DNA of 64,000 bases from Spirochaetota bacterium (GTDB taxonomy: Bacteria; Spirochaetota; UBA4802; UBA5550). The notes under the pieces were generated by a model that did not search any database, was not told the DNA's origin, and saw only the letters and a list, made by a program, of their open reading frames with translations. The position numbers were made by a program, and so were the translations under genes. Below are positions 9,238 to 42,725 of this stretch, one piece after another; the stretch's first letter is position 1; each line of letters opens with the position of its first letter. Location of the stretch: positions 1 through 64,000 of the forward strand of contig JALOTL010000012.1 of NCBI GenBank assembly GCA_025457915.1, written 5' to 3'.

Positions 9238-10614
9238 TTAGCTTATTATACCATATTTTTTTAATTTTCTATAGAGTGTAGCCCTGCTAATATCAAGCAT
9301 CACGGCAGTTTTATCAGCATTGCCCCTGGATATTTTATAAGCTTCCTCAATGGCTTTTCTTTCAAGTTCTTCAAGAGTCGGCATGCTTTTACGGGTTTCT
9401 GTTTCTTCTTTGTGTTCGTCCTCTTTTTTCGTATCGCTTTCAGAATCCGTCTGCCCGAAAAATTTAATGTCCCTTATCGTGGAATCCATGCTTTGCACGG
9501 CGGCCCTTCTTATTATATTTTTGAGTTCCCTGATATTGCCCGGCCAGGAATAATTAATAAGGGAATTCATGGCCTCTTCGCTTAAGGACATCTGGTCAAT
9601 TTCGTAGAAACCGCAGAATTCTTTCAGGAAGAACTCCGCCAGCACCGGTATATCTGATTTTCTTTCCTTCAATGACGGTATTTTTATAGGGTATTCCTCG
9701 AGCCGGTAATAAAGGTCCGATCTGAATTTTTTTTCAGCTATCATGGAAGAAAAATCCCTGTTCGTCGCGGATACGACTCTGAAGTCGACCTTCTGGTCGA
9801 ATTTTTCACCCAGCTTCCTTATGGTCTTGTCTTCAATGACCCTGAGCACCTTTGCCTGTATTTCCAGGTCCATATCGCCGATTTCATCCAGAAATATGGT
9901 CCCGCCGTTGGCCTGCTCGAAATATCCCCTGTGGTCCTGGAACGCGCCCGTAAAGGACCCCCTCTTGTGTCCGAAAAGAAGGCTTTCTGAAAGTTCGGTC
10001 GTAATCGCCGCGCAGTTGACGACGACGAAAGGACCGTTGGATCTTTTGCTGCCTGCATGAATGGCCCTTGCCAGAAGCTCCTTTCCCGTGCCGCTTTCCC
10101 CCAGGATGAGAACGTTTACATCCCGCTCCATTATTTTTTCAGACTGCTTGAATACCTCGTTTATCTCCGTGCTCTCGCCGACTATGCTGCTGAAAACCTT
10201 GTTGCGCCACAGGATTTCCTTCAGGCCGCCGACCTCGTTTTTCAGTTCCCGGATCGAATAGGCGTTCTCGAGAACGGTGTCGAGAAGCTCCGTGTCCAGG
10301 GGCTTCGTGAGGTAATCGAAAGCGCCCATCTTCATCGCGGAAATCGCGCTGCCTATTTCGTGTGAGGATGAAATGATTATGACGAAAATGTCAGGATGGT
10401 TTTCCATGAGATTCTTGAGGATGTCGGACTCCTTGTCGCAGCAGCTTTCGGATTCCAGTATGGCTATGTCAGGCTTGAATGACTCCAGGTATTTGTTAAT
10501 TCCGGAGGAGCTGCGCTCGAACCTTAACGAGAAATTTTTTTGGAGATGGTTTTTAAGTTCTTCCTCAAGGGAGTCGTCAATGTCTAAAAGAAGTATTTTG
10601 CCCCGATCATTCAT
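9238..10614 (-). CDS. Sigma-54-dependent response-regulator-type activator with altered receiver
   Basis: NtrC-family architecture: receiver domain (about 5-120), AAA+ sigma-54 interaction domain (about 150-370) with Walker A GESGTGKE, a GSFTGA loop (usual form GAFTGA) and the Walker B segment GGTIFLDEIGD, then a C-terminal Fis-type helix-turn-helix (AVMLDISRATLYRKLKKYGI). I place the start at ATG 10614, with AGGTG upstream, just after the yraN stop; an earlier in-frame start would lie inside yraN. The acidic pocket (D13, D14) and the conserved Lys (TKPLD) are present, but the phosphoacceptor position reads AILE54 where active receivers have Asp. It may be active without phosphorylation. No partner kinase is adjacent. 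Confidence 0.9.
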   Translation of the reverse strand: MNDRGKILLLDIDDSLEEELKNHLQKNFSLRFERSSSGINKYLESFKPDIAILESESCCDKESDILKNLMENHPDIFVIIISSSHEIGSAISAMKMGAFDYLTKPLDTELLDTVLENAYSIRELKNEVGGLKEILWRNKVFSSIVGESTEINEVFKQSEKIMERDVNVLILGESGTGKELLARAIHAGSKRSNGPFVVVNCAAITTELSESLLFGHKRGSFTGAFQDHRGYFEQANGGTIFLDEIGDMDLEIQAKVLRVIEDKTIRKLGEKFDQKVDFRVVSATNRDFSSMIAEKKFRSDLYYRLEEYPIKIPSLKERKSDIPVLAEFFLKEFCGFYEIDQMSLSEEAMNSLINYSWPGNIRELKNIIRRAAVQSMDSTIRDIKFFGQTDSESDTKKEDEHKEETETRKSMPTLEELERKAIEEAYKISRGNADKTAVMLDISRATLYRKLKKYGIIS

Positions 10615-10618
10615 CCCG

Positions 10619-10978
10619 TCACCTGAATATGTCCTCGATCCACTCGATGCCGTTTTCATCGACTGATATCAGATCAAAACGGAAGGTGGCCCCCTGTATT
10701 TCGTTCCAATTTTCGAACAAATACTTCCTGGCCGTATTCTTGATGGAATTGATTTTTTTCCTTCCTATAGAATACAGTGCGCCGCCGAATTTTTTGGAAT
10801 TTCTTTTTTTGACCTCGACGAACACCACGCTTCCGTCCTTGCCGGCTATTATATCTATCTCTCCGGTCTTGCCGGACCTGTAATTCCTCTCGAGTATTAC
10901 AAATCCTTTTTTTTCGAGAAAGTCGGCGGCTGCGTCTTCGCCGCATTTTCCTGTTATGTGTCTGTAACGACTATCCAA
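10619..10978 (-). CDS. yraN: YraN family protein (UPF0102)
   Basis: A 119-residue protein of the YraN/UPF0102 family, which has a restriction-endonuclease-like fold. Seen here: GKCGEDAAADFLEKKGF at the N-terminus, then ERNYRSGKTGEIDIIAGKDGSVVFVEVKKR, which holds the E-x-D...E-V-K nuclease-type residues. The start is TTG at 10978, with GAGGTG about 12 bases upstream. It sits between the HD-GYP-like gene and the sigma-54 activator. In many genomes yraN lies close to rnhB and trmD, as it does here. Its cellular role is not established. Confidence 0.9.
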   Translation of the reverse strand: MDSRYRHITGKCGEDAAADFLEKKGFVILERNYRSGKTGEIDIIAGKDGSVVFVEVKKRNSKKFGGALYSIGRKKINSIKNTARKYLFENWNEIQGATFRFDLISVDENGIEWIEDIFR

Positions 10979-18625: not shown

Positions 18626-19747
18626 ATGGACGATGAAGTAAGAATATTGATTATGTCGGATCTCCATCTCGGGATCGACAGCGACCGGCTTTACATACCT
18701 GAAAGCGTGAGGTTGAACACATTCAGGAAGATAACCGCGCTTGCCCTCGAGCACGACATCCTTCTTGTGGCCGGGGACCTGATGGATTCCCCTGATCCCG
18801 GCGCTCAGCTCATTGATGCGGTCAGGACCGAGTTCATGAAGCTGAAGGAAAAGGGCATTGATATAATTTATACCCCCGGGAGAGGGGAGCTGGCAAAGGA
18901 GGGCGGAATATCGCCTGACATGGCCAGGTTGAACGCGTCTCATGTTTTTCTGGATCCGGATTCATCCCCCTACCTGTATCTGAAAGGTGGGCAGAGAATA
19001 TACCTTTACGGGCTCCCGGCATCCATGGCATTTGATGTAACAAAAATCAGGAAGGTCTCCGAGCAGGGATTTCACCTGGGACTTTTTTACGTGGACCTGG
19101 ACCAGGGAAGGGATGAATACGATCCAAGGGTTTATAAACTCAGCAAGTCCGACATCAGGAAACTGGATCTTGATTTTTACGCTTTCGGATACAACCATTC
19201 ATTCAGGATGTACAAGATACTCGACAAGATAATCGGGACCTATCCCGGCAGCCCGGAGGCTACATCGTGGAGGGAAACCGGGGACAGGTATGTGGTGTCC
19301 CTGTCGGTTAAGGATGACGAGATATCCCAGATTAAAAGGCTCTCGGTGAATTCCATCAAGATCCTGGATATGGTAATCAACTGCGACGAGGTCGCGGACG
19401 AAAAGGAGCTGATGGGTAAGATCGTAACCGGCAGGTCGAAGCGGGTCTCGCAGAGGGTGACGATCAACGGCGTCAGGAATTTTCACGTGGACGACTATCA
19501 GCTCAGGGGACTTGCCGGCGAGTTCTACCACCTGGAGATCAATGATAACTCTCTTCCATCGGTCGAGCTGATCGCGGGGGACTACGATACTGAAGATACG
19601 CTGAGGGGGGAATTTTTCCGGATGCTGAGGGAGAAATGCAGGGGGAGGCTTCCTGAAGGTGTGGACCGGCTGACAATATCCGAGATACTTGAAACCATAC
19701 GCAGGAAAGGAACTGACAGCATGGAGGAGTGGATGTGCAGTATATAA
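18626..19747 (+). CDS. SbcD/YhaO-like metallophosphoesterase with degenerate motifs
   Basis: A 373-residue protein whose N-terminal 230 residues follow the calcineurin-like plan of SbcD/Mre11/YhaO nucleases: MSDLHLG at 10-16, VAGDLMDSP near 49-57, then YTPGRGELA where the family has the GNH[D/E] metal site, HLGLFYVD, and FGYNHSF where the family has GHxH. Two metal-binding motifs are therefore altered, and nuclease activity is doubtful. The C-terminal part (about 240-373) resembles a capping region that contacts the ATPase partner. It is the first gene of a three-gene unit and its 3' end overlaps the ATPase gene. Confidence 0.8.
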   Translation: MDDEVRILIMSDLHLGIDSDRLYIPESVRLNTFRKITALALEHDILLVAGDLMDSPDPGAQLIDAVRTEFMKLKEKGIDIIYTPGRGELAKEGGISPDMARLNASHVFLDPDSSPYLYLKGGQRIYLYGLPASMAFDVTKIRKVSEQGFHLGLFYVDLDQGRDEYDPRVYKLSKSDIRKLDLDFYAFGYNHSFRMYKILDKIIGTYPGSPEATSWRETGDRYVVSLSVKDDEISQIKRLSVNSIKILDMVINCDEVADEKELMGKIVTGRSKRVSQRVTINGVRNFHVDDYQLRGLAGEFYHLEINDNSLPSVELIAGDYDTEDTLRGEFFRMLREKCRGRLPEGVDRLTISEILETIRRKGTDSMEEWMCSI

Positions 19748-21882
19748 AATGCGTCGCGTCCTTTCCAGGGCTGTTCGAGAGCACTGCGATAGACCTTACG
19801 GACAGGATAACAGTCATTTACGGCAGAAACGGTTCCGGGAAAACCCTTCTCTCGATGGCGTTCATAGACGGCATCTGGAGGAGCTTCTCGGGGAAAAAAT
19901 TCGTATCGGACGAGTCCTGGAACAAGATCTACATCGAGTTGATTTTCAGTCTTTCCGGGTCCGGATTTTACAAGGCCATAAACAACAGCGACAAGTTCTA
20001 TACCATCAATTACAAAAACGGCAATTATGATAAGGTCATTTTTTCTGAAAACAGGGGGGAAAATTCCGCCGAAGACGGGCAATCCGGCATAACCTCCAGG
20101 CTTTCAGAGGCAAGGGAGCTGAATGATTTTGTCATGCGGATCGATTCGGATTCATTTTTCGACTCTTCCTATGTTCCTTCGCCTTCAAACATGGACAGGA
20201 CCGTGCTGCTTCATCGGCAGCCGATCCAGAAGCTCCTCATAGACGACGATTCAGGATTTCATGATCTCCATAACTCGCTGTCCAGGATTTTCAGGAACAG
20301 CGGCTGCGACGGCAGGATAAGGAGCGAAATTGAAAAGAACGAGGAATCCCTTAGAAGCCTGAACAGGAACATAGAGATAACCGACATCAAGGATTCCAGG
20401 GCCGACAAGCTCAACAATGAAAGAAAAAATATAAGGAAGGAGCTGAATTCTCTTAACGGTTCACTTGAGAGATTCAAAGAGCAGAAGGGTGTTCTGAAAA
20501 AAATCATTGAAGACCTTGAAAAAATAGAATTTCTGAACAACGACCTTGAAAAGATCAAGTCTGAGGTCTCGAACGAACAGGAAAAACTGAGCTCCCTCAA
20601 TTTGTTGAAGGAGGACATATTCAGGATATTTCCTCAATTCAACAACATGAGGATTGAGGACAGTCCCAACCTGGAAAAGGTCCAGGAACTCTTCACGAAC
20701 ATAAGGAACATAAATGAGAAGATAGACGACATACATTTCCAGAAAGACATTAAAAGAAAAAGAGCCAGGAAAACCGCCATTTTTATCGGCATTTCGACCT
20801 TCATTTCCGTTGCATCAATACTCTATAAAAATTCATTTTCACTGAAAATGGACGTTTTTCTTCTGGGCGGGATACTGGTCTTCGCTTTTGTTTCGTGCAT
20901 CCTGGCGCTGATTTATTCCGTCATTCCGTCAAGAAGGAAAGATATACAGAAGCTCCGGGAGGAAAGAAGGTCGGTCGAGGAAGGACTGAAGGAGGTCCTT
21001 GAAAAGAGCAAGGTTGAGATCGAGGGGTACAAACTCAGCGAGCTGTATGATTTCCTGCTGCAATATTTCGAGGATTATATCGAATACACGGAACGCACCC
21101 GTGATATTGTGGACCTTAAAAAATCGCTCAAGAAGTCCGATTACCTGGTGGCAATCGAGGAAAAGCTGGATTCCCTCAGGGAGGAGGAAGAGTCGATAAG
21201 GATGGAAATCAGCGAAAACCTGAGGGCGGTAGAGATAATTAAAGACATCGAGCTGGAAACGGACAAGATCAACGGAATACTGGGAACCATAGACAGGGAG
21301 ATTGAGCTGCTTGAACAGCAGATTTCCATAAAGCAGAACATTCTATCCCAGATCGACGATGAGCTCGAAAGGAATCCCCAGAAAAGGACGTCATCCGGCA
21401 GCCCGCTCATGAGGGAGAGGGACGAGATTGAAGGCAGGCTCAACAGGCTTACGGCAAACAGGAGTTCGCTGCATTTTATTTTTGAAGTGCTTAACGAAGC
21501 GGTGAACGCCAGGAGCGAGAACAGGATGAATTCGCTTGTGTCATCAGCTTTAAGAAGATTCAATTATCTTACAAACAACCAGTACGTGACGAGGGTCGAC
21601 GAGGCATTGTACAACAGGATGCTGGCCGAGGGGAGGCTGGATGGGGATTTTAATCAGGGCACCGTATACGAGCTCCTGCTCTGCATGAAGCTTTCAATAA
21701 CCGATTACCTCCCAGAGAGAAATCAGCTGCCCCTTATAATCGACGACCCGTTTCAATTCATGGATGACGAAAGGACGACAAGGTTCAAAAGCATCATAGA
21801 CGAGGTTTCCAGGAAAAGGCAGGTGATTATTTTTACCCATCAGGGAGATAAAAAGGGCTGGGGAAATTATATTGAATTGTAG
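19735..21882 (+). CDS. YhaN/SbcC/Rad50-like coiled-coil ATPase with two membrane segments
   Basis: About 715 residues. The start is GTG at 19735, placed because GGAGG (19723-19727) sits 7 bases before it; a GTG two codons earlier is possible. Walker A GRNGSGKT is at about 30-37 and Walker B LPLIIDDPFQFMDDERT is near the C-terminus, with an ABC-type signature-like QGTVYELLLCMKLS before it. Two long coiled coils flank a hydrophobic pair of helices (about 20770-20930) that sits where Rad50 has its zinc hook. This is the YhaN-type layout, a membrane-tethered SMC-like ATPase. It would pair with the upstream phosphoesterase. Confidence 0.85.
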   Translation: MQYIKCVASFPGLFESTAIDLTDRITVIYGRNGSGKTLLSMAFIDGIWRSFSGKKFVSDESWNKIYIELIFSLSGSGFYKAINNSDKFYTINYKNGNYDKVIFSENRGENSAEDGQSGITSRLSEARELNDFVMRIDSDSFFDSSYVPSPSNMDRTVLLHRQPIQKLLIDDDSGFHDLHNSLSRIFRNSGCDGRIRSEIEKNEESLRSLNRNIEITDIKDSRADKLNNERKNIRKELNSLNGSLERFKEQKGVLKKIIEDLEKIEFLNNDLEKIKSEVSNEQEKLSSLNLLKEDIFRIFPQFNNMRIEDSPNLEKVQELFTNIRNINEKIDDIHFQKDIKRKRARKTAIFIGISTFISVASILYKNSFSLKMDVFLLGGILVFAFVSCILALIYSVIPSRRKDIQKLREERRSVEEGLKEVLEKSKVEIEGYKLSELYDFLLQYFEDYIEYTERTRDIVDLKKSLKKSDYLVAIEEKLDSLREEEESIRMEISENLRAVEIIKDIELETDKINGILGTIDREIELLEQQISIKQNILSQIDDELERNPQKRTSSGSPLMRERDEIEGRLNRLTANRSSLHFIFEVLNEAVNARSENRMNSLVSSALRRFNYLTNNQYVTRVDEALYNRMLAEGRLDGDFNQGTVYELLLCMKLSITDYLPERNQLPLIIDDPFQFMDDERTTRFKSIIDEVSRKRQVIIFTHQGDKKGWGNYIEL

Positions 21883-21887
21883 GAAAG

Positions 21888-22880
21888 ATGGACAAGAACG
21901 GACAGCTCACATTTTCCGATGACCCTATGCTGCAGGGGATCAACGAGGTCTACCAGATGATAGAGGGCGGCGATTTTTCCGCCGCGGTCAACAGGCTTGA
22001 CGAACTCATGGACCTGGACCCTGATTATCCCGGCCTGGTAGACAGCTACAGGACGGCGAAGTTCTGGAAAAACAGGTATTCTGAAATGAGCGGGTTGTCG
22101 GCCGGCAGGCTGACGGCTGAATACCTGATGAAGCAGTGGGAGATTTTCAACGAGTATGCCGAAAGCAAAAAGATGACTGAAACAAACGCCTACAGGGCGG
22201 CGATGAAACATGTCTTTTTCAAGGCCGCGGACCATTACAGGATTGCCTTCGTCGACCAGCAGGACACGACCAGTAATTTTGATTTTCTTTTGAACCTCGG
22301 GAGCTGTTTTTTAAAGCTCGAGGAATACAAGCTCGCCATTGAAACTCTCGAATATGCGAAAAGCTCTTATACGGCAAACGCGAAGCTCCTTTCCATTCTT
22401 GCGGAGGCCTATTTTCATTCCGGCGACCTGCCGAAGAGCCTTCTTTATTTCAGGGAGGCCTTTTACGTGGATCCATCCCAGATAGATCTCGGACTCATCA
22501 AGGCAAAACCGGTCAGGGACGTCATTGAAATCATCAGGAAAGATGAAAACAGCGCGATAAACGATAAGAATATGGCGGAGTGGATACCGGCTTACGCCTT
22601 CATCAACGATGTGTTTTACGTAAGGAGAAACACGAGCAGAAACCAGGTTGAGACCATTGAAAAAGAGATATACAACCTTGAGATAAACTATCAGAAATTG
22701 AGCAGGGAGCAGCTCGATGCAACCAATATAGTGCCCAGGCTCGTCAATAAATACCTGTGGCTTCTGGATTACTATGAATTTCAGAACTACAGCTTCGAGA
22801 ATATTTCCGAAATACGGGAAAGGCTGATCAAGCTTGACAGGAGGCTTTTCCAGGAGTACTTCGGGCGGAAAAAGATATAG
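21888..22880 (+). CDS. TPR-repeat protein
   Basis: A 330-residue soluble protein beginning 6 bases after the ATPase stop, behind AGGAAAG. Tetratricopeptide-like helical pairs occur at about 20-60 (INEVYQMIEGGDFSAAVNRLDELMDLDPDYPG) and 125-205 (LLNLGSCFLKLEEYKLAIETLEYAKSS, AEAYFHSGDLPKSLLYFREAFYVDPS). The C-terminal 100 residues are helical without clear repeats. It ends the unit, with a terminator at 22916-22947. It presumably provides protein contacts for the ATPase-phosphoesterase pair; that is inference from position. Confidence 0.8.
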   Translation: MDKNGQLTFSDDPMLQGINEVYQMIEGGDFSAAVNRLDELMDLDPDYPGLVDSYRTAKFWKNRYSEMSGLSAGRLTAEYLMKQWEIFNEYAESKKMTETNAYRAAMKHVFFKAADHYRIAFVDQQDTTSNFDFLLNLGSCFLKLEEYKLAIETLEYAKSSYTANAKLLSILAEAYFHSGDLPKSLLYFREAFYVDPSQIDLGLIKAKPVRDVIEIIRKDENSAINDKNMAEWIPAYAFINDVFYVRRNTSRNQVETIEKEIYNLEINYQKLSREQLDATNIVPRLVNKYLWLLDYYEFQNYSFENISEIRERLIKLDRRLFQEYFGRKKI

Positions 22881-22963: not shown

Positions 22964-24946
22964 TTATTTACCATAAATCTTTTTAGCGCCGTTCACTATG
23001 ACTTCGACAACGGTCGGATCGGCGAGGGTCGATATGTCGCCGAAATTTTTCGGATCGAAGTCGGCGGCTGCAACTCTCTTGAGAATCCTTCTCATTATCT
23101 TTCCGGAACGGGTCTTGGGAAGAACGTCCGCCCACTGTATTATTTCAGGAGTGGCTATGGGCCCGATCTCCTTTCTTACGTGAGCGACGAGCTCCTTCTT
23201 GAGATCGTCGGATTTCTCAACGCCGGTGTTCAGAGTAACGAAGGCGTATATTGACTGTCCCTTGATCTCGTGAGGATATCCGACAACAGCAGACTCGGCC
23301 ACTTTCGGGTGAGATACGAGAGCTGACTCGATCTCGGCTGTTCCCATACGGTGTCCGGAAACGTTGATAACGTCGTCGACTCGGCCGGTTATCTGGTAGT
23401 ATCCGTCCTTGTCCCTCTTGCAGCCGTCACCGGTGAAGTAGAGTCCCGGGAACTGGGTGAAGTAAGTGTTGAAGAACCTTTCGGGATCCCCGTACACTCC
23501 CCTCATCTGGCCGGGCCATGCTTTTCTGATGCAGAGGTTGCCCTCGCATACGCCGGTCAGTTCTTTCCCGGCATCGTCCACTATGAGAGGATCCACGCCG
23601 AAGAAGGGAACTGTAGCCATGGCCGGCTTGATGTCTATCGCGCCGGGAAGAGGCGTGATGAGTATGCCGCCGGTCTCTGTCTGCCACCATGTATCGACTA
23701 TCGGGCATTCGCCTCGGCCGATCTTCATGTAGTACCAGTTCCATGCTTCAGGATTGAGGGGCTCGCCGACTGATCCGAGAAGCTTTATCGAGGTTATGTC
23801 GTGCTTGTCCACCCACTGGTCGCCTTCTTTCGCGATGGCCCTGATCGCAGTTGGAGCAGTGTAGAATATGTTTACTTTGTATTTCTCGACTACCGCCCAG
23901 AATCTGCCGAAATCCGGGTAGCTTGGAACGCCTTCAAACATTAAAGTCGTGGCGCCGTTCGCGAGAGGACCGTAAACAATGTAGGAGTGACCGGTTACCC
24001 AGCCTATGTCGGCCGTGCACCAGTAGACGTCGCCTTCATGATAGTCAAAAATCATCTTGTGCGTGAAGGCAACGAATGTCAGGTAGCCGCCGGTCGTGTG
24101 CATGACGCCTTTCGGCTTTCCGGTTGATCCTGATGTGTAGAGAATGAAAAGAGGATCTTCCGCGTCGTTCTGCTCGGCCGGGCAGTTGGCGTCTGCTGAC
24201 GCCATTTCGGCTTCATACCATTTGTCGATCTTGTCGTTCCAGTCGACCTGGACCTTGTCGCCGACTCGTTTTACAACGATGTGGAGACGAACCTGCGGGC
24301 TCTCTTTGATGGCCGCATCGGCATTGGTCTTCTGGGGAACGGCTTTGGCGCCCCTGAATGTTCCGTCGCAGGAAACTACGACCTGGCTCTTCGCGTCGTT
24401 AACGCGGTCGCGGAGAGCTTCAGCGGAAAAACCGCCGAAAACGACAGAGTGGATTGCGCCTATCCTGGTGGCTGCCAGGATGCCTATCGCGAGTTCCGGG
24501 ATCATCGGGAGGAAGAAGGTGACAACGTCGCCTTTCTTCACGCCGTTTTTCTTGAGAACGTTCGCGAATTTGCAGACTTCTGTATGAAGCTGTTTGTAGG
24601 TGAATTTTTTTGATTCGTTCGGGTCGTTTCCTTCCCAGATGAGGGCTACCTGGTCCCCTCTTTTTTCGAGGTGCCTGTCAAGGCAGTTATAGGAAACGTT
24701 GACTTTCGCGCCCGTGAACCATTTCACGTAGAGGTCTTTTACGGATTTTCCGTAACTGCAGTCCATGACCTTGTCCCATTTCTTGAACCAGGTGATGTAC
24801 TCTTCAGCGATTTTTCCCCAGAACGCGTCTGGATTGGTCACTGATTCTTTCCACATTTTTTCATATTCGGGCCGGCTTTTGATATAAGCCTTTTGTCTGA
24901 ACTTTTCCGGTACTGGATAAATTTCCTTTAAGGTGACTTCTGCCAT
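22964..24946 (-). CDS. acs: Acetyl-coenzyme A synthetase
   Basis: A 660-residue AMP-forming enzyme, full length. It makes acetyl-CoA from acetate, ATP and CoA through acetyl-AMP. Motifs: [15 protein letters not shown] near 170, the ATP-binding [19 protein letters not shown] (about 270-288), [26 protein letters not shown], the hinge-region [14 protein letters not shown] and [20 protein letters not shown], and [14 protein letters not shown], whose Lys is the usual acetylation target that switches the enzyme off. An AcuC-type deacetylase is encoded 3 kb away and could reverse that modification. Base and codon use here are more conserved-looking (few AGG Arg codons) than in neighbours, as expected for a highly expressed gene. 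Confidence 0.97.
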
Positions 24947-37121: not shown

Positions 37122-39020
37122 ATGGGAAAGTATCAAGAGGCTTACGACGAATCAATCAAGAACCCGTCGAAATTCTGGGGAGAGGCCGCAAAGGACATCC
37201 GCTGGATCAAGGAGCCGACGAAGGTTCTCGATGATTCCAACAAGCCGTTCTACCGCTGGTTTACTGACGGCGAGATCAATACCTGCTACAACGCGCTGGA
37301 TTACCATGTAGAAAACGGCAGGGCCGATCAGACCGCCATCATCTACGACAGCCCGGTAACGGACACCATTAAGAAATATTCATACAGGGAGCTCCTGGAT
37401 GAAACATCGAGATTCGCAGGCGTCCTGAAGTCACTGGGCGTGGCCAAGGGCGACAGGGTCATCATATACATGCCTATGATACCGCAGGCGGCGATAGCAA
37501 TGCTGGCCTGCGCGCGGATCGGGGCGATACATTCAGTGGTTTTCGGCGGGTTCGCCTCGAACGAGCTCGCGATCAGGGTGGATGACGCGAAACCCAGGAT
37601 AATAATTTCCGCGTCCTGCGGCATCGAGGGGAAAAAGGTCATCGAGTACAAACCCCTGCTTGACAAGGCCATAGAGCTTTCCAGGTACAAACCTGAAAAG
37701 TGCATCATTTATCAGAGGAAACAGGCATCTTCTCCGCTGACAGCCGGGCGAGACCTTGACTGGGACGAAATGATGAAGAAGGCCGGGCCGGCAGGATGCG
37801 AGAAGCTGAAGGCCACCGACCCGCTTTACATACTTTATACGTCCGGGACCACCGGGATCCCGAAGGGCGTCGTGAGGGACAACGGCGGACATGCCGTGGC
37901 CTTGAAATGGAGCATGAAAAACGTGTACGACGTCAGCCCCGGCGACGTGTACTGGGCGGCATCCGACGTGGGCTGGGTCGTCGGCCATTCATACATAGTA
38001 TACGCGCCGCTTCTTTACGGATGCACCACCATCATGTACGAGGGAAAACCCGTTGGCACCCCTGACCCGGGGGCTTTCTGGAGGGTCATATCCCAGCACA
38101 ATGTAAAGGTCCTGTTCACCGCACCGACGGCCTTCAGGGCGATAAAAAAAGAGGACCCGAACGGTGAGTTCTTTAAAAAATACGACCTCTCCAGCTTCAA
38201 GGCCCTTTTCCTCGCGGGCGAGCGCCTTGATCCCGACACGTACGAATGGGCGAGCAGGCTGCTCAAGAAGCCGGTGATAGACCACTGGTGGCAGACTGAA
38301 ACCGGATGGGCCATCGCCGCGAACTGCATAGGCATAGAAAACCTTCCGGTGAAGGCCGGGTCTCCGACCAAGTGCGTTCCCGGATACCAGGTGGAAATAC
38401 TGGACAGTGAAGGCAGGCAGCTACCTAATGAAACTGAAGGCATCGTGGCCATCAGGCTGCCCCTGCCTCCGGGTACCCTGCCCACGCTGTATCAGAACGA
38501 CGATAAGTTCAAGGAATCGTACACCGACCCGTTTCCCGGATATTATTTCACGGGCGACGGCGGGTATTATGACAGGGACGGATACATATACATCATGGGA
38601 AGGGTTGACGACGTGATAAACGTTGCGGGCCATCGACTTTCCACCGGGGCCATGGAAGAGGTCATCGCGAAGCACCCGGACGTGGCGGAATGCGCGGTCG
38701 TCGGCGCGGCCGATGATTTCAAAGGGCAGCTTCCTCTGGGATTCGTCGTGCTCAAGGCGGGAGTCAAGCGCAGCGGGGACGAGATCATCAAGGAGCTTGT
38801 CCAGATGATACGCGACCAGATAGGGGCCGTGGCCGCCTTCAAGCAGGCGCTTATAGTGGAAAGGCTGCCGAAGACCAGGTCCGGTAAAATTCTCAGGGCG
38901 ATCATGAGAAAGATCGCGGACGGCGCCGAATACAAGGCGCCTTCGACGATCGACGACCCGGCCATACTCACGGAGATCGAGGGTCATTTGAAGACCATAG
39001 GTTACGCTAAAAAGCAATAA
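37122..39020 (+). CDS. prpE: PrpE-like acyl-CoA synthetase (propionate type)
   Basis: A 632-residue AMP-forming ligase, with GGAGGAG ahead of ATG 37122. Motifs: VVFGGFASNELAIRV, YTSGTTGIPKGVVRDNGGHAVAL (the DNGGH stretch is typical of propionyl-CoA synthetases), DVGWVVGHSYIVYAPL, DHWWQTETGW (Acs has a Gly where this has Trp-Ala), [38 protein letters not shown], and [15 protein letters not shown] with the acetylatable Lys. It would activate propionate or a related short acid. Its place between a GntR regulator and an OFA transporter suggests import, then activation, of one carboxylate. Confidence 0.88.
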   Translation: MGKYQEAYDESIKNPSKFWGEAAKDIRWIKEPTKVLDDSNKPFYRWFTDGEINTCYNALDYHVENGRADQTAIIYDSPVTDTIKKYSYRELLDETSRFAGVLKSLGVAKGDRVIIYMPMIPQAAIAMLACARIGAIHSVVFGGFASNELAIRVDDAKPRIIISASCGIEGKKVIEYKPLLDKAIELSRYKPEKCIIYQRKQASSPLTAGRDLDWDEMMKKAGPAGCEKLKATDPLYILYTSGTTGIPKGVVRDNGGHAVALKWSMKNVYDVSPGDVYWAASDVGWVVGHSYIVYAPLLYGCTTIMYEGKPVGTPDPGAFWRVISQHNVKVLFTAPTAFRAIKKEDPNGEFFKKYDLSSFKALFLAGERLDPDTYEWASRLLKKPVIDHWWQTETGWAIAANCIGIENLPVKAGSPTKCVPGYQVEILDSEGRQLPNETEGIVAIRLPLPPGTLPTLYQNDDKFKESYTDPFPGYYFTGDGGYYDRDGYIYIMGRVDDVINVAGHRLSTGAMEEVIAKHPDVAECAVVGAADDFKGQLPLGFVVLKAGVKRSGDEIIKELVQMIRDQIGAVAAFKQALIVERLPKTRSGKILRAIMRKIADGAEYKAPSTIDDPAILTEIEGHLKTIGYAKKQ

Positions 39021-40547: not shown

Positions 40548-42725
40548 CTACTTTTTCCTGAAATTTTCCTCGAGGAATGCAAGAACCCTGGCCGCCACCC
40601 TGTCGAACTCCTTGCCCCTCACAATCCCGTGCCTGTTCGCATAAATCCTGCAGAGTTCCTTATCGGCCGTACCCAGCTTGTCGAATATCTCCAGCCCGCT
40701 TGCCGGGTTCACTATGGGGTCGTTCGATCCCTGGACTATCATGGTCGGGGTATCCACGTCCGGCAGCCTCTCTTCCACGGTTTTCATCAGCTTTTCAAGC
40801 TCCGATACGCCTCGAACCGGGTTCCTGAAATAATTTATGTTGGGGTTCTCCGGGGTGTTGGTGATGTATTCCATTTTGCCCCTGTTCAATTTAAACCTGG
40901 AAAGAAAGTTGTTCCACACCACCACGGCCGAAGACAGTCTCGATGCGATGTTCTGAAGGTGAAGCGGCGCGTTAATGGATACTATGCATTTGAACCTGTT
41001 TTTTTTATTGGCCGCCTGGAGAAGGGCGAGCCCGGCGCCTGTTGAGAAGCCAACTATGGCGAAGTCCCTGACGGTGTTTTTCATCACAACGTAGCCCCTG
41101 TTCACGGACTCGTACCACTCGTCCCAGTTCCTTTCGGCCAGGTCCTCCGGCGACGTGCCGTGACCCCTTAGCCTGACGCCATACACAGTATAGCCTTTAC
41201 CGTAAAGGAAATCCGCGAGGACCCTGATTTCTTCCGGCGCGGCCATGTATCCATGTACGAGTATCACTCCCCTCTCGGAAAAGCACCTCTTGAAGAAGAA
41301 TGGCGATCCGATCTCAGTGGGCTTGCTTTCCCCGGGAATTTTGTATTGTTTGTAATCGTCAAGGAATATCTCCCGGTCGTGCGCTATGAACCTCTTCCTT
41401 ATTTTTCTTCTCAGAAAAAACGGGGACATAAGCATTATCCTGTGGAGCCATTTAATGAGTCCTTTTATCGGCTCTATCTCGTTTTTAAGAACTTCGACGA
41501 TATTGTCTTTCCTGACCGAATGGAACTTGTATATCCTCTGGAATTTTGACCCGTTCCTGATGATGCAGCCGTCCCTGAGCGTTACCAGGCCCGCGGATTC
41601 CGCGGCCTCGACGAAGCTGCCGTATTTGCTGTGGAAATCGTCGGTATTCAGATAGTCCTGTTTTTTTATCAGGCTTGAATGGAAGTTTGAAATCCCCAGC
41701 TCCTTTATTTTTTCTATCGCCAGGTTCGCCCTGTTTTTGAAGTCCGTCTCGTCTATCCTGTTTTTCGGGTACATGGCGAGAATGTACGAGAAGATATGGT
41801 CGTGGTTCACGGTCGTCATAGTGTAAATGCATTCCATGTACCTCTGCATGAGCTTCAGTGACATGCTCGTCAAGTGTGAATTATCCGACAGCTCGCCGTC
41901 AAGGTACAGATCGTGGTTGGATATCATTTTCCTGATCGAGCCTTTATCGAATAGATACTTTTTTATGAGTATCGGTTCACCGAAGGTAACGTCGATGTCA
42001 ACGCCCTCGAGCAGCATGGTCCCCTCAACCAGGAGTTCCTCCTCCAGTCTCGGTGAAACCTCCTTCGAGAATTTCTGGATGATTTTGTTGATCGAGTTGT
42101 CCCTTGCCCTGACGGGATAGTAGGTGATGTTGACCGGAACGATGTAGGTTTCCCTGTTGAGAACGTCCTCCGTGCTGTCGGTTATGCCGAAGCGCTCCAT
42201 TATTTTCTGGACAGCGTTCTGGTTCCCGCTTTCCTGGAGGAACCTGATTTTTTCACGGTAGAACTGGGATACGAGCGCGGTCCTGGCGGCGCCGCTGTGA
42301 GGCGGGCGCCTGATGCCGACGTTGTAGACCATGTATTTGCCCTTCTCGATGATCTTCTTGTCCTTGATCATCTGGCCTTCCGGGAATATGACAACCGGGT
42401 TTTCGTCGGTGAGGAGGCATTTAATCATCAAATTGTCCCTTTCAGGGTCGCGGGTCGATATCGCCCCCAGCTTGACCATCAGGTTTCCCAATCCGCCGCC
42501 GAAAAAGGAATAATGCGCGAGCGAAATTGGAAACTTGCCGGTGGTCCTCTGGACCAGGTAAGGTATGAATACCGTCTCCATTCTCGTGAAATGGTTGACG
42601 ACATAAAGGACCGGGTCGTCAGGGATGTTTTCCGCGCCGTGGACCCTTATCTTGGCGCCGGAGTTTTTAAAAAGACTGTCCAGCGCCGTCCCTATGGTTT
42701 TAATAAGAATATTCGATATCTCCAT
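40548..42725 (-). CDS. Fusion of a PlsC-type acyltransferase and an alpha/beta hydrolase
   Basis: A 725-residue protein. The N-terminal 230 residues follow the glycerolipid acyltransferase plan: VVNHFTRMETVFIP (the H-x4-D motif reads H-x4-E), AISTRDPERDN, and VIFPEGQM. A helical middle region (about 270-430) has no family I can name. The C-terminal 240 residues are an alpha/beta hydrolase: VILVHGYMA, VRLRGHGTSPEDL, nucleophile elbow GFSTGAG, acid in QGSNDPIV, and His in NRHGIVRG. The product may acylate and then deacylate a lipid. The start ATG has AGGAGAG upstream. No frameshift is seen between domains. Confidence 0.85.
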   Translation of the reverse strand: MEISNILIKTIGTALDSLFKNSGAKIRVHGAENIPDDPVLYVVNHFTRMETVFIPYLVQRTTGKFPISLAHYSFFGGGLGNLMVKLGAISTRDPERDNLMIKCLLTDENPVVIFPEGQMIKDKKIIEKGKYMVYNVGIRRPPHSGAARTALVSQFYREKIRFLQESGNQNAVQKIMERFGITDSTEDVLNRETYIVPVNITYYPVRARDNSINKIIQKFSKEVSPRLEEELLVEGTMLLEGVDIDVTFGEPILIKKYLFDKGSIRKMISNHDLYLDGELSDNSHLTSMSLKLMQRYMECIYTMTTVNHDHIFSYILAMYPKNRIDETDFKNRANLAIEKIKELGISNFHSSLIKKQDYLNTDDFHSKYGSFVEAAESAGLVTLRDGCIIRNGSKFQRIYKFHSVRKDNIVEVLKNEIEPIKGLIKWLHRIMLMSPFFLRRKIRKRFIAHDREIFLDDYKQYKIPGESKPTEIGSPFFFKRCFSERGVILVHGYMAAPEEIRVLADFLYGKGYTVYGVRLRGHGTSPEDLAERNWDEWYESVNRGYVVMKNTVRDFAIVGFSTGAGLALLQAANKKNRFKCIVSINAPLHLQNIASRLSSAVVVWNNFLSRFKLNRGKMEYITNTPENPNINYFRNPVRGVSELEKLMKTVEERLPDVDTPTMIVQGSNDPIVNPASGLEIFDKLGTADKELCRIYANRHGIVRGKEFDRVAARVLAFLEENFRKK

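Follow-up and report, generated by a model that had tools for sequence, protein, structure and literature searches.

Mre11–Rad50 and SbcCD combine a phosphoesterase with a coiled-coil ABC ATPase, and in YhaO/YhaN-type pairs the phosphoesterase gene is directly followed by the ATPase gene. A short Rad50-like ATPase of ~650 aa with an altered ATPase motif is known as LmuB of the Lamassu (LmuACB) systems (PMC10586767). In the DNA polymerase B subunit Dpb2 the phosphoesterase is inactivated, and the calcineurin-like fold has a structural role without catalysis (PMC7308368). The locus analyzed here, located in a 64 kb stretch of spirochaete DNA (the window), shares the gene pairing of Mre11–Rad50 and SbcCD, a predicted Mre11 fold over the whole chain, and a Rad50-type head in which most members retain Walker A and B. 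It differs from them in lacking motif III of the phosphoesterase and the ABC signature, in having a membrane hairpin in place of the zinc hook, and in including a third gene for a TPR protein. The YhaO/YhaN-type pairs compared (Latilactobacillus curvatus, Monoglobus with a 701-aa ATPase, and the spirochaete loci L062, L126, L130 and L131) have the same adjacent order and several have a hairpin at the equivalent central position, but they retain the metal ligands and the LSxG signature and have no TPR gene. Dpb2 resembles gene 1 in retaining the fold without catalysis, but belongs to an unrelated complex and serves only as a works-like comparison. The unit belongs to the broad Mre11–Rad50-like kind, yet lacks the catalytic features of the families within it. 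A literature search covering part of the published work found no description of the three-gene set.

The original prediction of tightly packed phosphoesterase, ATPase and TPR genes, the first two overlapping, agrees with the reading frames (Table 1); the gap between genes 2 and 3 is 5 nt. The unit is flanked by a divergent PASTA-domain-like gene and a convergent acetyl-CoA synthetase (acs) gene, both named from sequence. The assembly that includes the window is incomplete and consists of 50 contigs. Elsewhere in the window, acetyl-CoA synthetase-type genes are present at 22964-24946 and 37122-39020, the latter confirmed by Pfam, and the 725-aa product of 40548-42725 combines an acyltransferase domain at its N-terminus with an alpha/beta hydrolase domain at its C-terminus. 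A response regulator of the sigma-54 activator type is encoded at 9238-10659, and its relatives adjoin the three-gene unit in divergent orientation in families f2, f5 and f7.

Table 1. Features of the three-gene unit, with positions in the window.
Feature	Positions	Strand	Basis
Gene 1, Mre11/SbcD-like phosphoesterase, 373 aa, degenerate active site	18626-19747	+	ORF
Motif I, D12-L-H14, kept	18659-18667	+	alignment
Motif II, GDLMD with D51, kept	18773-18787	+	alignment
Motif III, R86-G87-E88 replacing N-H-D/E, lost	18881-18889	+	alignment
Motif IV, Y155 replacing His; lost in the window copy, His retained in 22/28 units	19088-19090	+	alignment
Motif V, Y189-N-H191 replacing H-x-H; first His lost, second kept	19190-19198	+	alignment
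Overlap of genes 1 and 2, 19 nt	19729-19747	+	ORF
Gene 2, Rad50/SMC-like ATPase with central membrane hairpin, 717 aa, GTG start	19729-21882	+	ORF
Walker A GRNGSGKT, aa 32-39	19822-19845	+	conservation scoring
Predicted membrane hairpin, aa 348-396, both flanks K/R-rich, short inter-helix loop	20770-20916	+	hydrophobicity, model
LYDFLLQYFEDYIEY, aa 439-453, most conserved ATPase block, unit-specific	21043-21087	+	conservation scoring
Degenerate ABC signature GDFNQGTVYELLLCMKL, aa 639-655, replacing LSGG	21643-21693	+	comparison with relatives
Walker B/D-loop QLPLIIDDPFQFMDD, aa 666-680	21724-21768	+	conservation scoring
Gene 3, TPR protein, 330 aa, spirochaete-wide family	21888-22880	+	ORF
N-terminal motif QLTFSDDP of the TPR protein	21903-21926	+	alignment

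Gene 1 matched the Mre11/SbcD models weakly (NF041031, 1.9e-9; TIGR00619, 3.9e-7), and neither match reached its cut-off (for TIGR00619, 30.1 bits against 77.65). Also PDB Mre11 chains matched it at the sequence level. The AlphaFold2 model of gene 1, produced with 28 relatives as input, had a mean pLDDT of 89.3, and its top PDB matches were the Mre11 subunits of MRN, Mre11–Rad50 and SbcCD complexes (E from 1.5e-15); in the predicted model the Mre11 fold covers the whole chain, the C-terminal helices included.

The full phosphodiesterase motif set (D, H, D, N, H, H, HxH) is not present in gene 1. As reference positions of Pyrococcus furiosus Mre11 we take D8, H10, D49, N84, H85, H173, H206 and H208, at which the window copy reads D, H, D, R, G, Y, Y and H, respectively. 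Gene 1 was aligned with the other unit proteins, 28 in all, and with 22 SbcD-like proteins of the same phylum that are not part of a unit. Among the 28 unit proteins, D12 was retained in 28, H14 and D51 both in 25, H208 in 27, H173 in 22, H206 in 11, H85 in two and N84 in none. In the relatives outside the unit, N84, H85, H173, H206 and H208 were all retained in 22 of 22. The catalytic His (H85) is thus missing from 26 of the 28 units, and the two retaining it read GEHE. The motif-III Asn is replaced by Glu in 13 units and by Glu or Asp in half of them, and the HxH pair of motif V is retained in 11. D12, H14, D51 and H191, all present in the window copy, are the ligands of one metal site. The aligned residues indicate that this site is mostly retained and that the second site and the catalytic His have been dismantled, most completely in family f1, to which the window belongs, and in family f3: throughout f1, motif V lacks its first His and motif III is scrambled, and in f3 nearly all ligands are lost.

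The readings GRGE for GNH(D/E) and GYNH for GHxH, given in the original prediction, were confirmed by the alignment. Its conclusion of a degenerate nuclease holds for these motif losses, but it had missed the loss of the motif-IV His (Y155), the kept ligands of one site, and the loss of the ABC signature in the partner. An intact metal site in the model, which it had named as counter-evidence, was found in part: the residues as a whole are not intact, and one of the two sites largely is.

The partial retention of ligands also gives rise to the main rival explanation, according to which the phosphoesterase is still an enzyme, with a changed chemistry or substrate, that uses a single metal or a second site with Glu substituted in it, the whole complex being a membrane-bound, ATP-regulated hydrolase. 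The four ligands D12, H14, D51 and H191 are kept in 25–28 of the 28 unit sequences counted above and were invariant in a set of 29 unit sequences, a hint that some metal binding or chemistry persists, and the acidic residues at the motif-III Asn together with the two GEHE units suggest that some members outside the family of the window could still hydrolyse something; the units keeping the HxH pair point in the same direction. The scrambled motifs of f1 and the nearly complete ligand loss in f3 argue against such an enzyme, as does the decay of the partner ATPase as well. We consider this explanation rather unlikely, and it carries most weight for the members with Glu at the motif-III Asn.

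Gene 2 matched AAA_23 with 34.7 bits, exceeding the cut-off, and its ABC head is split, carries Walker A and B, the latter reading LPLIIDDP, and sits on a coiled coil. Its AlphaFold2 model, which has a mean pLDDT of 80 and lower confidence in the coiled coil, consists of a head, long helices that enter the hairpin, and a return arm. The PDB matches of the model included Rad50, MukB, Smc5/6 and Lamassu LmuB; these alignments were long coiled coils with low TM-scores and therefore support the fold class only. Structure prediction of the single proteins, proposed as a check in the original prediction, accordingly gave a Mre11 fold for gene 1 and the Rad50/SMC fold class for gene 2.

All 27 unit ATPases examined have another sequence in place of the ABC signature; outside the unit, an S-x-G signature was retained in 20 of 20 complete relatives. 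The window ATPase and most unit members possess Walker A and B. A subclade of family f1 has lost Walker A and has a changed Walker B (loci L056, L057, L075 and L080; further L091, L095, L096, L098, L103, L106 and L110); the genera without Walker A are g2, g5, g9 and g10. Hairpin and gene order are both retained in this subclade, and the four members of it included in the ATPase tree formed a single clade (100/97).

These losses bear also on the explanation that the unit is a functional DNA-repair nuclease of the SbcCD/YhaON type with unusual motifs. The Mre11 fold with its C-terminal helices is compatible with it, and gene 1 was the sole SbcD-like match in the window's own genome, where no AAA_27 ATPase was found. 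However, the motif-III Asn is lost universally and its His nearly so, the ABC signature is lost, and one subclade has lost Walker A, which makes a repair nuclease very unlikely. The kinship with YhaO/YhaN suggested in the original prediction stands at the superfamily level but not more closely: gene 2 did not match AAA_27 (PF13514), a model that recognizes the two-gene relatives L062 and L064.

No zinc-hook CxxC was found between the arms of gene 2; a hydrophobic hairpin occupies that place, in accordance with the two membrane helices originally predicted there. Membrane insertion was predicted from hydrophobicity alone, with a Kyte–Doolittle value of 1.6 as the threshold for a membrane helix. 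In the window hairpin TM2 is strong (2.82) and TM1 borderline (1.59), and in most homologues TM1 exceeds 1.6. Central hydrophobic helices were present in 28 of 28 unit ATPases, one or both over the threshold. Both flanks of the hairpin are rich in K and R, as expected for a cytoplasmic location of the two arms.

Pairs of two genes that encode an intact phosphoesterase and a membrane-hairpin ATPase were detected in the order of the window at L126, L129, L130, L131 and L139, and elsewhere in another spirochaete order (L062) and in Monoglobus of the Bacillota (L147, 4998-8237); the motif reads GNHD or GNHE in the pairs of the window's order and of Monoglobus. A hairpin as such thus does not set the three-gene unit apart. 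Only the unit combines the loss of motif III and of the signature with the block at aa 439-453 and the TPR gene. A separate SbcCD-like pair occurs across the order of the window (L121-L125, L127 and L128), with an ATPase of ~800 aa that has no hairpin and a phosphoesterase in which GNHS or GNHC replaces GNH(D/E).

When Jensen–Shannon conservation was scored in blocks of 15 residues, the block LYDFLLQYFEDYIEY reached 0.66 and the Walker blocks 0.59-0.60. The block is retained also in the pseudo-ATPases lacking Walker A, and a pattern search did not find it in 21 two-gene relatives. The model places it on the return arm, within a helix that has breaks on either side, and it is possibly a docking site or a coiled-coil elbow.

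Gene 3 contains TPR repeats at ~113-198. In an alignment of 26 sequences, Q6, L7, F9 and D11 were invariant across the phylum, and on the basis of full-length similarity and the QLTFxDDP N-terminus gene 3 belongs to a spirochaete TPR family. Its close relatives occur order-wide and its distant ones, with 22–30% identity, in most other spirochaete families. A pattern search with the TPR alignment found members in metagenome-assembled genomes of uncultured Spirochaetes/Spirochaetota, e.g. RBG_13_51_14, HGW-Spirochaetae-5, UBA5368 and ADurb.Bin218.

Outside the order of the window, the TPR gene is located immediately 5' of a giant GreA-type gene in nine of the 11 genomes that have the TPR gene, and in a tenth the two are one gene apart. 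This arrangement recurs in most other spirochaete families; examples of the TPR gene followed by the giant gene (~900 aa) are L063 (8416-12281), L067 (8282-11925), L069 and L072. In the giant GreA-type gene tested, the GreA domains were C-terminal only; in G047, G053 and G056 the neighbour of the TPR gene matched the giant gene in its N-terminal part only. Gene 3 is a member of this GreA-linked family, but in the window's order the TPR gene lies 3' of the Mre11/Rad50-like pair and away from greA, the giant GreA of the window's own genome being on contig C44. A further, tentative reading is that the unit is a purely structural tether and that the TPR protein was recruited to link it to DNA or to the transcription machinery.

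The order of the window belongs to a little-known group of uncultured spirochaetes. Gene 1 was found in 42 of its 46 genomes, gene 3 likewise in 42, and both in 41, in which they are ~3.2 kb apart in unchanged order, as expected from the three-part set originally proposed. Genes 1, 2 and 3 were contiguous on a single strand in 27 of 27 fully read loci of the order and in the window, and absence of the TPR gene from most homologous loci, which would have counted against the proposal, was not seen: no complete homologous locus in the order lacks the gene. The three-gene observation is confirmed and is stronger than it was at first stated. Among the five order genomes in which genes 1 and 3 were not found together, only G006, where the PASTA flank is kept and all three genes are gone, is clearly a true loss; in G044, G045 and G012 a contig ends near the expected site, and G036 is fragmented. 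No fourth conserved partner gene was seen, the flanking genes varying among families.

In the trees of gene 1 and of gene 2 alike, the unit formed one clade (100/99). Genes 1 and 2 are fast-evolving: compared with the nearest genus, their identity is ~40-47%, and that of the neighbouring acs gene 82%, which could suggest decaying neighbours or genes that cluster by chance and share no function. Nevertheless, the Nei–Gojobori dN/dS ratios of genes 1 and 2 were mostly 0.08-0.17, and the pair L098/L110, which is unsaturated and belongs to the subclade with lost Walker motifs, gave 0.109 for gene 1, 0.169 for gene 2 and 0.010 for gene 3. Such low ratios, also in the pair with Walker loss, indicate purifying selection and not pseudogenes. 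The set is moreover contiguous across seven families with differing flanks, which is not expected by chance, and has been lost jointly. Pseudogene decay was rejected on the dN/dS ratios and the contiguity, and decay or a chance cluster is hardly credible.

The same distribution bears on a Lamassu-like defence against phages or plasmids. Gene 2 matched one LmuB model (6.7e-11), though it is also Rad50-like, and its model aligned with LmuB structures; a short Rad50-like ATPase with an altered motif is common to both systems. The unit differs from Lamassu in having no LmuA effector or LmuC: an LmuA effector gene was not found with PADLOC models or in the gene neighbourhoods, and genes 1 and 3 matched no PADLOC model. 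It also has a membrane hairpin, unmentioned for Lamassu in PMC10586767, and it is vertically inherited and order-wide, forming one clade in both trees and often lying next to housekeeping genes. Viral contigs included no relatives of gene 1 or gene 3, and plasmid matches to gene 1 were few and distant. A defence system was rejected on the distribution and the missing effector, and has even less probability than a repair nuclease.

The reading we prefer, with a probability of about 0.6, is that the unit encodes a membrane-anchored, non-nuclease scaffold of the Mre11–Rad50 type with a TPR adaptor. The catalytic residues have been lost while the hairpin, the coiled-coil block and the partnership have been kept, and a scaffold fits this better than an enzyme. 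We infer complex formation, absence of nuclease activity, an adaptor role and TPR docking as follows. The three products would form one membrane-anchored complex that keeps the Mre11–Rad50 architecture and from which the nuclease function is gone. The ATPase heads would be cytoplasmic, and the coiled-coil arms would end in the two-helix membrane hairpin at the place of the Rad50 zinc hook. The Mre11-like protein would be a structural subunit capping the heads, and the TPR protein an adaptor, possibly docked on the block at aa 439-453. Opening and closing of the heads by ATP binding may persist in most members; in the Walker-loss subclade, without the ATP-binding motif, the scaffold alone would remain. 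The tethered cargo may be DNA, as a first guess by descent, and the DNA-sensing or regulatory role originally suggested is conjectural.

The units form a natural series in which the nuclease motif and the ABC signature have been lost, and then, in one subclade, the ATP-binding motif, while the architecture, gene order and selection persist. Such a series would let one ask which roles Mre11–Rad50-like complexes have besides DNA cutting, and whether membrane attachment can substitute for the zinc hook. Also, a core TPR protein of the spirochaetes with unassigned function would gain a defined candidate partner.
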